This document shows, piece after piece, positions 18,201 through 55,202 of a stretch of DNA of 64,000 nucleotides. Below the pieces are notes generated by a model. That model did not search any database, was not told the origin of the DNA, and saw only the letters and a list, made by a program, of their open reading frames with translations. Within the stretch, counting starts at the first letter, position 1. The number at the start of each line of letters is the position of its first letter. The DNA comes from Chloroflexota bacterium (GTDB taxonomy: Bacteria; Chloroflexota; UBA11872; UBA12225; JAJDUF01), in the NCBI GenBank assembly GCA_022826725.1, contig JAJDUF010000012.1:186001-250000 (forward strand), given 5' to 3'. The position numbers and the translations under genes were made by a program.

Positions 18201-18326
18201 TCCGGCGCCTCACGTTGAGTGATCCGCTTGCGGCGACCCTGGATATTAGGTAGCGTGTGAGGCTGGCCCGTGACGATTATCCCAACTGTGGGCAGTCGGC
18301 TGAAGGGCGAGGCAGAGAAGATCGAC

Positions 18327-18692
18327 ATGGCGAGCGACATCGTGGCCCGACAGACGAAGACCGAACCGGCCGCGCGCAGGGGCAGTGAAGCGCACTTGGA
18401 TGGGGACGACTATTTTCCGACAACCGAGAATGGGAATACGATGCTAGACCTGCTGGAGGGTCAAGGCGAGGACAGAGCACTCGCACGAGACTTGGCCCTG
18501 GCTATCGCCGAATCCTGGGTATCCGGGAGTGCGAGCTACACAAGTAAGGCCGTGCAAACGCTTATGGACTGGATGGCGACGGCAGAGGAGTATGCTAATC
18601 CTGAAGGCTTGGAGGAGATTAGGGAAGCAAGGAGAAGTATAGAACGCGGTGAGGGTATTCCGTGGGACTCGGTGAAGGAGCAGTTGGGCTAA
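18327..18692 (+). CDS. Probable type II antitoxin
   Basis: A 121-residue acidic protein directly upstream of a RelE/ParE-like toxin. The last 30 residues (EEIREARRSIERGEGIPWDS region) match the C-terminal pattern of Phd/RelB-type antitoxins, where a helix with basic spacing ends in an IPxxxV motif that wraps the toxin. The N-terminal half is divergent and poorly ordered. The ATG at 18327 has a purine-rich AGAGAAG sequence 6 nt upstream; GTG-18270 and ATG-18438 are alternatives, the latter giving a more typical length near 84 residues. Base composition is visibly lower in GC than the flanks. Assignment rests on context plus C-terminal pattern. Confidence 0.6.
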   Translation: MASDIVARQTKTEPAARRGSEAHLDGDDYFPTTENGNTMLDLLEGQGEDRALARDLALAIAESWVSGSASYTSKAVQTLMDWMATAEEYANPEGLEEIREARRSIERGEGIPWDSVKEQLG

Positions 18693-18695
18693 TAA

Positions 18696-18965
18696 ATGAC
18701 GACGGCACCTGCGTTCAGAATCAGAGACATATCCGATAGGGCAGTGAAGTTCCTGGATAGGCGAGATAGTGATTCTGAGCGTATGCAGCAGTGCATAAGC
18801 GATATACTCAAGAATCTCTATATCAATAGTAGGCATCTGAAGGGTAAGGATCGGTGTAACTGGCGTCGTCGTGTCGGGCGCAATCGCATAATCTTCAGCA
18901 TCGACCAGAGGCTGTCGCTGATTGACATTATCTACATCGGGCCGAGAGATAAAGCATACCGATAG
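18696..18965 (+). CDS. RelE/ParE-superfamily toxin
   Basis: An 89-residue basic protein starting 3 bases after the antitoxin stop. The C-terminal half has the RelE pattern: HLKGKDRCNWRRRVGRNRII, then beta-strands IFSIDQ and IDIIYIGPRDKAY. In RelE-family mRNA interferases these strands carry the basic residues that bind and cut mRNA on the ribosome. The ParE (gyrase-targeting) subfamily has the same fold and cannot be excluded. AT-richer codon use than neighbours suggests acquisition by transfer. Confidence 0.65.
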   Translation: MTTAPAFRIRDISDRAVKFLDRRDSDSERMQQCISDILKNLYINSRHLKGKDRCNWRRRVGRNRIIFSIDQRLSLIDIIYIGPRDKAYR

Positions 18966-18990: not shown

Positions 18991-20400
18991 CTACAGCGCC
19001 GTGATGGCGGCGAGGAGGGCCGGCTCATCGCCGGGGAGGACGGTGCGGGGATCGAGCAAGAGCGCTTTCCGCTCAATGCGGCCGATGACGGGCGGCGTCA
19101 CTCGCCGCAGGGCCGCCGCGATGTCCTCGACAGTGCGCTGCCGGGGCCGTAGCGAGACAACGGCCGTCGGCAACGTGACGCCCGGCAGCGAGCCGCCACC
19201 GATGGCCGACTCTGCATCGCGCACACTCACCTCCAGGGTGCGCGACTGCCGCGCGATGACCGCTGCCCACCGCTGCGCCCGCTGCGACAAGTCCTCCTGG
19301 CCGGCGCCGATCATCTGCCACACCGGTAGCGCTCGTTCGGCCTCGCCGCGCTGGTAGTGCTGGAGGGTAGCAACCAGTCCGGCGATGGTCACTTTGTCCG
19401 GGCGCAGCGCCCGCACCAGCGGATGGCGCCGCAGCGCCGCCAGCGGCTCGCGCCGCCCGACGATCAGCCCGGCTTGCGGCCCACCGAGCAGCTTGTCGCC
19501 GGAGAAGCAGATCACGTCGGCGCCCGCGGCCACGCTGTCCTGTGGCCGCGGCTCCTGAAGCTCCCCGCCGAGGCCAAAGCGAGCGGTGTCGAGCAGACAG
19601 CCGCTCCCTAGATCGTCGGCCACCGCTACCGCGCGCTCATGCCCCAGCCGGACGAGCGCCGGGAGTGGCACGCTCTCCGTAAAGCCGACGACGCGAAAGT
19701 TGCTGGTGTGGACACGCAGCAGCAGCGCCGTAGCGGTGGTGATTGCGTCGGCATAGTCGGCGAGTCGGGTGCGGTTGGTCGTGCCCACGTCCACCAGCCG
19801 GGCGCCGCTCTGACGCAATACGTCGGGAATGCGGAACCCGCCACCGATCTCGACCGCTTGGCCACGCGAGACGATCACTTCTCGTCCGGCCGCGAGCGCC
19901 GCGAGCACCAGCAACAGCGCGGCCGCATTGTTGTTGACGACCAGCGCCGCCTCGGCGCCGGTTAGCCGGGTCAGCAGTGTCTCGACATGCACGTGCCGGC
20001 TGCCGCGCTCGCCGGCACTGAGGTCGTATTCCAGGTTGGAGTAGCCGGTGGCCGCAGCGGCCATCGCGCGCTGCGTTGCGACACTCAGCGGCGCGCGGCC
20101 GAGGTTGGTGTGGAGGACGATGCCGGTCGCATTGATTACGCGCCGCAGCGATGGTGCCAAGATGCGCTCGACCTGCGCGACGATGCGGCTGGCGAGGTGC
20201 TCCAGAGGAGGTGGTGCGTCGGAACTCGCCTCCTGACGGGCCGCCGCAAGCACTCCGCGAGCAACGTCCACCAGCACATCGTGGGACACATGCTCGGCGA
20301 GCGCCGCGACCGGTGGCGCGTTGAGGAGCCGATCCACGCTGGGCAGCCGGCGCCGCGCATCGAGGTTGCTGCCAACATTGGATTTGCGCACGCTGCTCAT
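18991..20400 (-). CDS. selA: L-seryl-tRNA(Sec) selenium transferase
   Basis: SelA is the PLP enzyme that converts seryl-tRNA(Sec) to selenocysteyl-tRNA(Sec) using selenophosphate, forming a large homodecamer in the cytoplasm. The 469-residue sequence has the N-terminal LPSVDRLLNAP tRNA-binding segment, INATGIVLHTNLGRAPLS, YSNLEYDL, VVNNNAAALLLVL, VADDLGSGCLLD and the PLP-Lys motif FSGDKLLGGPQAG near residue 300. ATG-20400 matches family starts; the frame is open 7 codons further. No selB, selD or tRNA-Sec is visible nearby, but a UGA-containing selenoprotein gene lies at 54942. Confidence 0.96.
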   Translation of the reverse strand: MSSVRKSNVGSNLDARRRLPSVDRLLNAPPVAALAEHVSHDVLVDVARGVLAAARQEASSDAPPPLEHLASRIVAQVERILAPSLRRVINATGIVLHTNLGRAPLSVATQRAMAAAATGYSNLEYDLSAGERGSRHVHVETLLTRLTGAEAALVVNNNAAALLLVLAALAAGREVIVSRGQAVEIGGGFRIPDVLRQSGARLVDVGTTNRTRLADYADAITTATALLLRVHTSNFRVVGFTESVPLPALVRLGHERAVAVADDLGSGCLLDTARFGLGGELQEPRPQDSVAAGADVICFSGDKLLGGPQAGLIVGRREPLAALRRHPLVRALRPDKVTIAGLVATLQHYQRGEAERALPVWQMIGAGQEDLSQRAQRWAAVIARQSRTLEVSVRDAESAIGGGSLPGVTLPTAVVSLRPRQRTVEDIAAALRRVTPPVIGRIERKALLLDPRTVLPGDEPALLAAITAL

Positions 20401-20449
20401 GGTGACGCACTCAGTCTGCACTACCGTAGCTTACATTGGGCGGCAAGGG

Positions 20450-23543: not shown

Positions 23544-23876
23544 ATGCGCTGCACGGTTGAGTTGTTGGGGGTGGCGCGGCTGCGAGCGGCGCGGCGCGCA
23601 GTCGAGGTGCGGCTGGGCGAGCGATGCGGTGACCGTGGGCGGTGTCGGGCGGCGACTGTCGCGGACGCGCTGAGTGCGCTCGCCGCCGCGTGCCCAGTGC
23701 TGGTGGGGCCGGTGCTCAGGCCGGATGGTCGCTCGCTCTGCACCGGCTACCTGCTCAACCGCAACGGTCGCGAGTTCGTTGATCGGACGGATGCGCCGCT
23801 GGCGGACGGCGACCGGCTCCTGCTGATCTCCAGCGCGGCCGGGGGCGGCCGGTTGGCGACGGCGGCGCGGTGGTGA
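23544..23876 (+). CDS. MoaD/ThiS-like ubiquitin-fold sulfur carrier, with residues beyond the Gly-Gly tail
   Basis: A 110-residue beta-grasp protein. The strands MRCTVELLGVARL and RAVEVRLGERC, the helix VADALSALAAACP and the final DGDRLLLISSAAGGG are the MoaD/ThiS pattern, in which the terminal Gly-Gly carries sulfur for molybdopterin assembly. Small MoaD-like proteins are commonly encoded beside AOR-family tungsten/molybdenum enzymes, as here. Oddly, the chain does not end at Gly-Gly but continues for 8 residues (RLATAARW). Either the tail is trimmed, or the protein is not a sulfur carrier. It has an AAGG site and lies 14 bases before the AOR gene. Confidence 0.75.
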   Translation: MRCTVELLGVARLRAARRAVEVRLGERCGDRGRCRAATVADALSALAAACPVLVGPVLRPDGRSLCTGYLLNRNGREFVDRTDAPLADGDRLLLISSAAGGGRLATAARW

Positions 23877-23890
23877 GAAAAAGCTGCAAC

Positions 23891-25762
23891 ATGAGTGACC
23901 GTCTTTGCGGCTATCACGGTCGGATGCTCGTCGTGGACCTGACGCGGCAGGTGTGGTCGGTGGAGCCGCTACCGGCCGAGATGCTGCGGTCGGTGCTCGG
24001 CGGCACTGGACTGGCGACGCGGCTGCTCTACGACCTGACGCCGCCGCAGGCCGATCCGCTCGGCCCGGAGAACGCCCTGCTGTTCGTCGGTAGCCCCCTC
24101 GTCGGTACGCCGCTGACCACCACGAGCAAGTTCATCGTCGCGGCCCGGTCGCCGCTGACCGGCTTCATTGGCGACTCGCTCTCGTCGAGTCACCTGGCGC
24201 TGGAGCTGAAGCGGTGCGGCTTCGACGCGGTGGTGTTGCTGGGCGCGGCAGCACGCTGGTCCACGGTCGCGATCTCGTGGCTGGGACCGCAGGAGGCGCA
24301 GCCGACCGTGCGGTTTCTCGACGCGAGCGATCTCCTGGGCTATGACACGGCTGCCACTGCCGAAGCGGTGCGGGCGCAACTGGGTAGTAAATGGCGGGTT
24401 GCGTCAATAGGGCCAGCCGGCGAGTCGCTGGTGCGCTACGCGACGATCAGTAACGATGGGCGCCACGCCGGACGCACCGGTACGGGTGCGGTCATGGGCA
24501 GCAAGGGACTCAAGGCGCTGGCGTTGAACGGCGGTTGGTCGGTGCCCGTTGCCCACCCGGAGGCGCTGGCGGCGACGGCGGAGCGGCTGCGGGAACGCAG
24601 CCTGGGGCCGGATACGGCCAAGTACCGCGAAATGGGCACCGTTGCCAATCTGCTGACTTTCGACCGGCTCGGGACGTTGCCCACGCGCAACTTTCAGCAG
24701 GCCACGTTCGAGGGTGCCGAGCGCCTGAGCGGCGAACGCCTGCATACGGACCGTTACGTGCGCCGCACGGCCTGCGCGAACTGCACCATCGGCTGCGAGC
24801 AGCTCTTTCGCGTATCGAACGGAAAACGCGCCGCCGCTGGGAATGGCGCCGGCGAGGAGCACCAGCGGAGCCGGCGCCTGGAATACGAGACACTCTTTGC
24901 CTTGGGGCCGCTGCTCGGTATTGACGATCCCGATTTTGTGCTCCATCTCGCGGCCCGCTGTGATGAACTGGGCATGGACACGATCTCGACCGGCGGCACG
25001 ATTGCGTGGGCGATGGAGGGCGCCGAGCGCGGGGTGCTGGATCGCGGCGCGCTCGACGGTCTGGACCTCCGCTTCGGCAGCAAGAAAGCCGTAGCCACGC
25101 TGGTCGAGCGCATCGGCAGCCGCGCAGGGGTTGGACACCTCCTCGCGGAGGGGTCGCGCCGGGCGGCTGCCCACGTCGGTCACGGCTCGGCGGACTGGGC
25201 GATGCACGTGAAGGGGCTGGAGCTGCCCGGCTACGAGCCGCGCAGCCTGAAGACGATGGCGCTGGGTCTGGCGATTGGGTCGCGCGGCGCCTGCCACAAC
25301 CGCGTACCCACCTATGAAGCCGACTTCTCCACGCAAGTGGATCGCCTCGCGGCCGATGCCTCGCGCGGGCAGCTTGCGGCGGAGGCCGAGGACCGGGAAG
25401 CGGTGATGGACTCGCTGATCCTCTGCAAGTTCATCCGCAAGTGCCTCGACAACTTCGAGGAAGATGCCGCGCACTTCTGGCGGCTCGTGACCGGCTGGGA
25501 CGTGGACGCTGCCGAGGTGCGTCAGGTTGGCGCCCGGATTAGCACGCTCAAGAAGGTCTACAATGAGCGCGAGGGGTGGAGCCGCGCGGACGACACGTTG
25601 CCGCCGCGTCTATTGGCCGAGCCACTGCCGGACGGCCCGGCCAGCGGCACCGCGCTCACCCAGGCGGAGTTGGATTCGATGATCGCCGGCTACTACGCGG
25701 CGCGGGGCTGGACTGCGGACGGTCGCGTACCCGCCAGCCAGCGCCGGGAGTTGGGCGCATGA
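23891..25762 (+). CDS. Aldehyde:ferredoxin oxidoreductase-family tungsten/molybdenum enzyme
   Basis: A 623-residue enzyme of the AOR family, which oxidise aldehydes to acids with ferredoxin using a bis-pterin tungsten (sometimes Mo) cofactor and one [4Fe-4S] cluster. The N-terminal domain has LGGTGLATRLLYD and SPLTGFIGDSLSSSHLALELK. The cluster ligands are CANCTIGC (about residues 294-301) plus a Cys in DSLILCKF (about residue 510). GYEPRSLKTMALGLAIGSRG and the pterin-binding GMDTISTGGTIAWAME segments are also typical. ATG-23891 is preferred over the GTG at 23870. The stop overlaps the next gene (ATGA). The physiological substrate is unknown. Confidence 0.93.
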   Translation: MSDRLCGYHGRMLVVDLTRQVWSVEPLPAEMLRSVLGGTGLATRLLYDLTPPQADPLGPENALLFVGSPLVGTPLTTTSKFIVAARSPLTGFIGDSLSSSHLALELKRCGFDAVVLLGAAARWSTVAISWLGPQEAQPTVRFLDASDLLGYDTAATAEAVRAQLGSKWRVASIGPAGESLVRYATISNDGRHAGRTGTGAVMGSKGLKALALNGGWSVPVAHPEALAATAERLRERSLGPDTAKYREMGTVANLLTFDRLGTLPTRNFQQATFEGAERLSGERLHTDRYVRRTACANCTIGCEQLFRVSNGKRAAAGNGAGEEHQRSRRLEYETLFALGPLLGIDDPDFVLHLAARCDELGMDTISTGGTIAWAMEGAERGVLDRGALDGLDLRFGSKKAVATLVERIGSRAGVGHLLAEGSRRAAAHVGHGSADWAMHVKGLELPGYEPRSLKTMALGLAIGSRGACHNRVPTYEADFSTQVDRLAADASRGQLAAEAEDREAVMDSLILCKFIRKCLDNFEEDAAHFWRLVTGWDVDAAEVRQVGARISTLKKVYNEREGWSRADDTLPPRLLAEPLPDGPASGTALTQAELDSMIAGYYAARGWTADGRVPASQRRELGA

Positions 25763-26839: not shown

Positions 26840-27229
26840 TTAGCTATCCCCTCTTTCAGACGCCAGGCGCTTGAGCCGCACAGCCGGCAGCCGCTTCAAC
26901 CGCTGACTCACCGGGTCCACCTCAATACCCACGGACTCCAGGGCCGTCACTCCCAATAGCGGCTCAACACCAGCCTCCCCGTAAAGGATCGTGCCGCCGA
27001 CGATTTCGCCCATGAACTCGATCTCAGCGACCGTGACGTCTAGCCTGAGTTCGCTCCCGTCCGCCAACTCGTAGATCCGTTTACCTCTAGGCGCCAGACC
27101 GATAGCTTCCAAGTGCGGCCTGGGAACCAAGGAGTCTGTCGCCCCGGTATCGACTAGGAACAGCCCTTCCCACGTCCGCTCCGGCTCCGCCGGGTTCCGA
27201 ATCGTGACCGTTACGGGTGTTGCCCCCAT
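26840..27229 (-). CDS. Retropepsin-like aspartic protease family protein
   Basis: A 129-residue protein with the single-domain aspartic protease signature LFLVDTGATDSLVPRPHLEAIGL (catalytic Asp in DTGA) and a later GVEPLLGVTALESVGIEVDP, matching the LLG.xxL motif of clan AA proteases, which act as dimers. No signal peptide or membrane segment. It starts 76 bases downstream of the ABC permease end on the same strand and converges on the MDR gene. Substrate unknown. Confidence 0.8.
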   Translation of the reverse strand: MGATPVTVTIRNPAEPERTWEGLFLVDTGATDSLVPRPHLEAIGLAPRGKRIYELADGSELRLDVTVAEIEFMGEIVGGTILYGEAGVEPLLGVTALESVGIEVDPVSQRLKRLPAVRLKRLASERGDS

Positions 27230-27305
27230 CCGCTCACCCTTTCCGCTGAATACGGCGCCTATTCGTCTTTGTCATTTCCACGCCCGTCGCCATCCACAAC
27301 ACTCC

Positions 27306-28964
27306 CTAGCCCGTCTGCCGCAGGTCTCGTCGCTCGAACAGCAGGACCGATAGCGCAATCAAGACCACCGCCAGTCCGGCGAGAAGCGCCGCGTGGCTCC
27401 AGTCCAGGCCGTTGTTCAGCGGGTCGTTTCCCAGGTAGTAGTAGAAGGGCAACCACTGGACCATGTCCGCCATGCTCTCGTTGAGCGCGGCGAACCCATT
27501 GACGAGGTGGAGCACGAGCGCCGCGCCGATGGTCACGAAGACGGCAATCCGCGTCCGTCCCGTGCCGGCGCTCAAAATCAGCGCCAGCGCGCCGAAGGCC
27601 AAGCCGAGCAGCGTTTGCAGCAGGCAGGTTGCGGCGATGTTGCCGATGTCCATGCCGAGGTCGGCAAGCAGGGAGCCGAGTGCAACTCCGGCGAAGGTGG
27701 CGAATCCTACGGCAAAGGCGTAGAGCGTCATCGTCCAGCTCTTCTCCAGCACGATCCGCGAGCGCCGGACCGGGTTGGCAAGCAGCAGGCCGATGGTCCG
27801 GCGCGATTCCTCGCCGGCCAATGCGCCGGCCCCTATGGCAATGGTGACCACCATGACCGAGACCGGCGCCATCAGGCCGAACGTCTCGATCTGGTACCAG
27901 CCCTCCGGGGTGCTGATGTCACCACCGCCGGCCAGCGCGATCAGGGCTTCCGGGAGGCTCTCGAAAGCCGTCAGGGTTTCCTCGGGAATGGCTTTGTAGA
28001 AAGGCCCCATCATCACGCCCATCATGAGGAACATCACCGCCGCCGTGACCAGCAGCAGCCCCTGATACTCCGAGGCTGCCTTGAGCCAGATCGAGGAGAC
28101 GCGGGCCGAGCCGGCCAGCTGGCCGATGACCTTCCTGGTCAGCGGATTGCCGCGCAGCCGATCTATCAGCGTAACACCGACGGACTGCCCCTTCAGGTCG
28201 CGGCGATTGACACCGATCACGGCGATGGCGCCAAAAATCGCAGCGCCGGCCAGCAGCACACCGAGATGACCCCAGTTGATACCGTTGTAGACTGGCTCGC
28301 TACCGTCGAAGTAGTACCACGGGAACGCTTTGACCAGTTCTTTCAGGTCCTCAATGAGTGGCAGCAAGCCGACGGCAAAGAACGACAGGACCAGCACCGC
28401 GGTCGTGACACCGGCCGCCGCCCCCCGGTTGCCGGTCCAGGCGCTGACGGCCATCGCCAGCAAGCCGTAGAAGAGGACGTTGACGAACATGTGGAGGGAG
28501 AGCGCTTCCACGTCCAGGCCGCCGATCTCGACGCCGAGCATGGCTGCGATGCCGTAGACCGCGCCCCACAAGATGAGCACGCTCAACGCCGCGAGCAGCA
28601 CCATGGCCCCGGCTTTGGAGACGAGCACGTAGGTCCGGCCCTTGGGATTGCCGAGCAGGATGCCCATGGTCCCGTCCCGCTCCTCGCCAGCGATGGAGGA
28701 TGCACCCAGCGCCAGCGCCATTGCTGCCAGGGTGATGGCGCCGTAGAGGCCGTGGATGGCTTGGACGGCGAGGCCGCCCGCGTCAACGTCCTCGCGGATG
28801 CCGATGAGCGCGACATAGGCCTCCGGCATTGACGTGAGGATGGAAAGGTCAATCTGGCGGTAGACCGCCATCCCGTACAGGATGAGTAGCATGAGGCAGA
28901 CGACGGCGATGGTCCAGCCCAGCCAGCGGTCCCGGAGCGTTTTGGTGAAGACGTTGGTCAACAT
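27306..28964 (-). CDS. ABC-2-type exporter permease, double-length
   Basis: A 552-residue membrane protein of about 12 helices made of two similar halves. Each half begins with a helix, a long extracytoplasmic loop, and a GEE(R/S)-containing cytoplasmic loop: IAGEERDGTMGILLGNPKGRT in the first and LAGEESRRTIGLLLANPVRR in the second. This internal duplication means one polypeptide can supply both permease halves. It overlaps the ATPase gene by one base (shared TGATG), so they form one exporter, perhaps for a drug, peptide or lipid. The substrate is unknown. Confidence 0.88.
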   Translation of the reverse strand: MLTNVFTKTLRDRWLGWTIAVVCLMLLILYGMAVYRQIDLSILTSMPEAYVALIGIREDVDAGGLAVQAIHGLYGAITLAAMALALGASSIAGEERDGTMGILLGNPKGRTYVLVSKAGAMVLLAALSVLILWGAVYGIAAMLGVEIGGLDVEALSLHMFVNVLFYGLLAMAVSAWTGNRGAAAGVTTAVLVLSFFAVGLLPLIEDLKELVKAFPWYYFDGSEPVYNGINWGHLGVLLAGAAIFGAIAVIGVNRRDLKGQSVGVTLIDRLRGNPLTRKVIGQLAGSARVSSIWLKAASEYQGLLLVTAAVMFLMMGVMMGPFYKAIPEETLTAFESLPEALIALAGGGDISTPEGWYQIETFGLMAPVSVMVVTIAIGAGALAGEESRRTIGLLLANPVRRSRIVLEKSWTMTLYAFAVGFATFAGVALGSLLADLGMDIGNIAATCLLQTLLGLAFGALALILSAGTGRTRIAVFVTIGAALVLHLVNGFAALNESMADMVQWLPFYYYLGNDPLNNGLDWSHAALLAGLAVVLIALSVLLFERRDLRQTG

Positions 28965-54677: not shown

Positions 54678-54941
54678 ACTACGCGCCCCTCGCTCTCCGG
54701 ATGAACAGTCTGATTCTACCAAATCAGTGGGCCACCAGGCAGGATTAACTCGGCGGATGAAAGCCGGTAAAGACAGGCCATTCCGATACCGGCGGCGGGC
54801 CGACGATAACCGGTGTTGCCGGCGGCTGCGCTGTCGCCTTGGTTGCACGACTGTTCGTTGTGCGTCACAATAGTGTCGGTCCCAACGCCGATCCGTCCAT
54901 GGTACGATTGGCTTGTCGGAATACCACGAGGAGGTAGCAAC

Positions 54942-55202
54942 ATGGCGATGGATGCCCCAGGCGCCCACATCCGGCTCGAATACTGCGTGTCTTGAAACTA
55001 TCTTCCGCGCGCCGCGTGGACGGCGCAAGAGCTACTCGACACGTTCTCGCAGCAGGTTGCCAGCTTGGCATTGGTACCCGGCGCTGGCGGCGCTTTCGAG
55101 GTCTCGGTGGACGGAAACCTGGTCTACTCGAAGCATCAGACCAGACGCTTTCCCGAGTTGAGTGAGGTGATGGAGGCGGTCAAGCCGCTGCTGCCCGACT
55201 AG
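54942..55202 (+). CDS. SelW/Rdx-family selenoprotein, in-frame UGA read as selenocysteine
   Basis: An 86-residue thioredoxin-like redox protein of the SelT/SelW/SelH (Rdx) family. The reading frame is interrupted by TGA at 54993-54995, exactly at the second redox position: RLEYCVS-Sec-NYLPRAAWTAQELL (Cys15, Sec18). Downstream the same frame continues with LALVPGAGGAFEVSVDG, LVYSKHQTRRFPE and EAVKPLLPD to TAG, all matching the family, so this is neither a truncation nor chance. A strong GAGGAGGT site at 54928-54935 precedes the ATG by 6 nt. A SECIS-like hairpin follows the UGA, and selA is at 18991. It probably reduces thiols in the cytoplasm; the substrate is unknown. It has no close functional neighbours. 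Confidence 0.92.
55002..55029 (+). promoter_or_regulatory. SECIS-like hairpin directly downstream of the UGA
   Basis: GCGCC (55009-55013) pairs with GGCGC (55022-55026) around the 8-base loop GCGTGGAC. CTT (55002-55004) can pair with AAG (55027-55029) below a four-base bulge. The apical loop starts with G and lies 19 bases after the UGA. Bacterial SECIS elements recognised by SelB sit inside the coding region just after UGA, with a G among the first two loop bases and a spacing of about 16-37, so this fits. Confidence 0.55.

Follow-up and report, generated by a model that had tools for sequence, protein, structure and literature searches.

The DNA analyzed here, a 64-kb window (64,000 nucleotides in all) from an uncultured Chloroflexota lineage, carries on its plus strand, at positions 54942–55202, a short gene of the SelW-like (Rdx) family that contains an in-frame TGA and almost certainly encodes a real selenocysteine (Sec)-containing redox protein, as the genome holds the complete Sec machinery and the UGA is kept in nearly all relatives. 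We hold with high confidence that the gene encodes an Rdx/SelW selenoprotein in which SelB, acting on a hairpin past the UGA, would give rise to Sec, and in which a Cys-x-x-Sec pair would form the redox center. Because TGA is a stop codon in translation table 11, gene calling with that table would cut the gene to 17 residues or drop it altogether.

The reading frame begins with an ATG at 54942–54944, passes through the TGA at 54993–54995, and ends with a TAG at 55200–55202, exactly as proposed in the original prediction. Read with TGA as Sec, it yields a product of 86 residues, MAMDAPGAHIRLEYCVSUNYLPRAAWTAQELLDTFSQQVASLALVPGAGGAFEVSVDGNLVYSKHQTRRFPELSEVMEAVKPLLPD. The strong ribosome binding site that had been predicted is a complete Shine–Dalgarno sequence, AGGAGGT (54929–54935, plus strand), located 6 nt upstream of the ATG, and since this site belongs to the ATG, we favor it as the start over an alternative in-frame GTG at 54813. 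The CxxU redox motif, C-V-S-U, comprises residues 15–18 (54984–54995, plus strand), as seen in the translation and in a comparison of 37 related loci; these consist of 30 copies from the same class and seven loci from GTDB genomes, with the window's own copy included and with locus L020 and class copy L027 sharing a contig. When 26 in-frame-TGA candidates between the long open reading frames (ORFs) of the window were inspected by eye, the stretch 54813–55199 alone looked selenoprotein-like. Scanning the surroundings of the gene for promoters and terminators yielded nothing informative, and an Rfam scan of the 64-kb window returned no match.

The family assignment is firm. Over its full length, the protein reaches 92.7 bits with the Pfam profile Rdx (PF10262, cut-off 22.6) and 76.7 bits with TIGR02174 for SelT/W/H (cut-off 34.2), thus exceeding both curated cut-offs, and the CxxU motif lies near the N terminus, as in members of the Rdx/SelT-SelW-SelH family. 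The hidden gene with a Cys-x-x-UGA motif that had been suspected from the open reading frames is therefore borne out as an 86-residue Rdx/SelW reading. Homology also continues past the UGA, again as foreseen: the 66 residues from LPRAAW onward are sufficient to match Rdx with 68.9 bits (4.3e-19) and TIGR02174 with 53.4 bits (2.3e-14). When Sec and Cys forms are compared side by side, the UGA, which encodes the U of C-V-S-U, occupies the position where Rdx homologues have Cys, in keeping with the prediction that it falls on the Sec/Cys site of the family. No other Rdx gene was found in this genome. The protein also matches the NCBIfam model NF041051 (SelTWH_Campy), which likewise describes SelT/SelW/SelH family (seleno)proteins; this model is named for Campylobacter, however, and the match is barely at threshold (88.2 bits, cut-off 88). 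The closest solved structures by sequence are the Cys-type Rdx proteins SAV_2001 (PDB 3dex, the best match at 1.9e-18) and Atu0228 (2fa8). SAV_2001 shares the segment RAAWxAQELLxTF with the window protein, but has Cys where the latter has Sec. A thioredoxin-like fold, the fold of the Rdx family, is to be expected for the protein.

Downstream of the UGA, we propose that a hairpin at 55009–55026 (plus strand) serves as the bacterial SECIS element. It has a 6-bp stem, GCGCCG (55009–55014) paired with CGGCGC (55021–55026), and a loop, CGUGGA (55015–55020), that starts 19 nt past the UGA (range for the hairpin, 19–25 nt). The SECIS-like hairpin of the original prediction, which came without coordinates, is thus present, and it is convincing across species, although its folding energy in the single sequence is unremarkable: plain minimum free energy tests were not significant, with single-sequence z values of about −0.6 to +0.3. 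We therefore cannot read the element from one genome, and the comparison between genomes carries the case. A targeted test considered loops of 3–8 nt centered 21–28 nt from the first base (T) of the UGA and compared them with recodings that preserve the protein. Over 28 distinct sequences, the hairpin was more stable than in synonymous recodings by a mean z of −2.0, and GU was present in the loop of all 28 (10.4 expected). These figures are descriptive, and z should not be taken as a probability, because the offset range was picked after the folds had been seen and the sequences are related. For the window sequence alone, the same test is mildly unusual, with 6% of recodings being as stable. 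The signal appeared at one of 16 offsets tested and at none of the other 15.

Stem changes between lineages point in the same direction. The stem GCGCCG/CGGCGC of this genus corresponds to GGGCCG/CGGCCC in Dehalococcoidia/Tepidiformaceae-type relatives with an identical loop, so that one pair has changed from C-G to G-C (Arg CGC to CGG and Ala GCG to GCC), a swap that is synonymous because both changes are at third codon positions. In most other members of the class, the stem is CCGYC/GRCGG, with U-A to C-G exchanges, and the loops are, for example, AGUUU, CGUGC, and GGUCU. The last of these resembles the SECIS loop of E. coli fdhF. Stem pairs covary in two subgroups, and part of this covariation also alters amino acids. 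The species comparison thus reveals a hairpin soon after the UGA with a G in a small apical loop. It is conceivable that the selenoprotein is real while SelB is directed by some other structure, or by no defined structure, rather than by the hairpin at 55009–55026. The ordinary folding energy of the single sequence and the amino acid changes within the covariation would fit such a situation, but the single outstanding offset, the GU in every loop, and the synonymous compensatory pair separating this genus from its Dehalococcoidia-type relatives make it improbable.

The machinery for Sec insertion is encoded in full. The selA gene (L-seryl-tRNA(Sec) selenium transferase) lies in the window itself, as the original prediction had it, at 18991–20421 on the minus strand (TIGR00474, 560 bits). 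The search for the remaining components across the genome (4.14 Mb in 23 contigs) recovered a full-length SelB (321 bits), SelD (370 bits), and a tRNA-Sec with anticodon UCA scoring 74.5 bits against an Rfam gathering score of 47. ARAGORN found no tRNA in the 64-kb window, the tRNA-Sec being on another contig. The combination that marks a bacterium capable of making selenoproteins, selA, selB, selD, and tRNA-Sec, is hence found together in this genome. Neither of the two outcomes that would have overturned the original prediction, a post-UGA segment unlike SelW proteins and a genome devoid of selB and tRNA-Sec, was thus observed. The selD gene (L015:1480–2439, minus strand, contig C21) carries a single in-frame TGA close to the N-terminal end, at residue 11 of the translated stretch, and its mRNA can form a hairpin, GGUCC/GGACC with loop GGA, the loop beginning 17 nt past the UGA; the distance from UGA to hairpin is similar to that in the SelW-like gene. 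The first match to formate dehydrogenase alpha in the genome is without an internal stop and was on that criterion rejected as a Sec protein. In one genus of the class (genomes G001–G006), rdx and selB share a contig and are no more than about 4–6 kb apart.

This parts list argues strongly for decoding of the UGA by SelB and Sec-tRNA. Other ways of reading through it, either near-cognate suppression or a genome-wide reassignment of UGA, are very improbable: no point in their favor was found, and they are contradicted by the presence of tRNA-Sec, SelA, SelB, and SelD, by the other genes of the window, which read normally with table 11 stops, by the placement of the UGA at the known Sec/Cys site of the family, and by a hairpin at the distance typical of a bacterial SECIS.

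Conservation of the UGA is close to complete in the class. An Rdx match was obtained in 38 of 41 genomes, and each of the 39 copies contains a single in-frame TGA, which is the U of CxxU in each of the 30 class copies fetched and in each of the seven loci found separately in GTDB genomes; a Cys form was seen in none of the 38 class genomes that have the gene. After the UGA, the codons of this genome differ from those of a congener by nine synonymous and two non-synonymous changes, with one, one, and nine changes at codon positions 1, 2, and 3. The notion that the TGA arose by decay or sequencing error from the TGC or TGT codon of an ordinary Cys-type Rdx gene, for which one may cite the Cys-type genes of the same phylum and the single base separating TGC from TGA, is refuted by the recurrence of the same TGA in 39 of 39 copies from independent assemblies, with protein constraint on the codons that follow and encoded Sec machinery, and merits almost no credence.

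In a wider draw from the phylum, 138 of 301 genomes had Rdx. Counting the listed rows by hand gives about 100 copies with one TGA and about 50 with none, and among the matches listed there was no internal TAA or TAG, only TGA. Outside the class, a tRNA-Sec accompanies the TGA form in 58 of 64 genomes vs 24 of 37 genomes with only TGA-free forms (hand tally); the UGA-form genomes lacking a tRNA-Sec match are mostly incomplete assemblies. One genome, G103, has both a TGA and a TGA-free form of Rdx and no tRNA-Sec match at 1e-9; its tRNA-Sec may be weak-scoring, in line with the low scores of other members of its family.

The history of the gene is less clear-cut. The Rdx tree (50 rows, 72 columns) leaves most deep forks unresolved, and places the window protein outside a 30-row group (support 91/85) of its other class members; its greatest similarity is to Dehalococcoidia-type copies (62–68% identity). 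One tentative scenario, which we regard as possible but doubtful, is that Sec is the fixed, ancestral form of Rdx in the class, that Cys forms elsewhere in the phylum arose by Sec loss, and that the gene of this genus, being closer to the Dehalococcoidia/Tepidiformaceae copies than to those of its classmates, was transferred together with its own SECIS.

Taken together, the genes suggest the following mechanism. SelA would make selenocysteyl-tRNA(Sec) using selenophosphate supplied by SelD, and the elongation factor SelB, bound to the hairpin just past the UGA, would deliver this tRNA. Because of that delivery, the UGA would be decoded as Sec and translation would continue to the TAG. In the product, the Cys-x-x-Sec pair would act as a thiol/selenol redox center. 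A cellular role as a thiol/selenol redox protein is presumed from family membership; the literature calls the function of the Rdx/SelW family unclear, with the CxxU motif suggesting a redox role (PMC1088965), and the window gene leaves that picture unchanged.

Several other genes in the window were noted. Two adjacent ORFs beside selA, 18270–18692 and 18696–18965 (plus strand), look by eye like an antitoxin and a RelE/ParE-type toxin, respectively; the former has no Pfam match. The window also encodes an aldehyde ferredoxin oxidoreductase (AFOR_N and AFOR_C), which belongs to a family of molybdenum/tungsten enzymes, at 23870–25762 (plus strand), and, at 26843–27358 (minus strand), a small aspartyl protease that resembles retropepsins and has a DTGA motif (PF13975, PF13650). 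Inspection of the neighboring genes at one related locus (L022) gave no functional hint.

The UGA-bearing rdx gene, which table 11 gene calling would shorten or lose, spans an entire, mostly uncultured class of Chloroflexota, and with its class-fixed UGA and synonymous compensatory SECIS changes it provides a comparative set for studying how UGA recoding is maintained. SelW-like proteins as such are already well known in bacteria (PMC1088965, PMC1794560, PMC2398784): they ranked first in abundance among prokaryotic selenoproteins in both the Sargasso Sea survey (48 genes) and the GOS survey (427 genes), and a survey of 2006 gives a table of bacterial SelW-like genes. A literature search of incomplete coverage for SelW in Chloroflexota returned no paper beyond that 2006 survey. 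The window gene shares with the known bacterial examples (PMC1088965, PMC2398784, PMC1794560) the Rdx/SelW domain, the CxxU motif, the in-frame UGA, and a short hairpin after the UGA with a G in a small apical loop. Whereas the earlier copies from complete genomes include those of Deltaproteobacteria, Clostridia, and Symbiobacterium (2006 table), the gene described here adds a Chloroflexota example, from an uncultured lineage in which nearly every member has a SelW-like gene.
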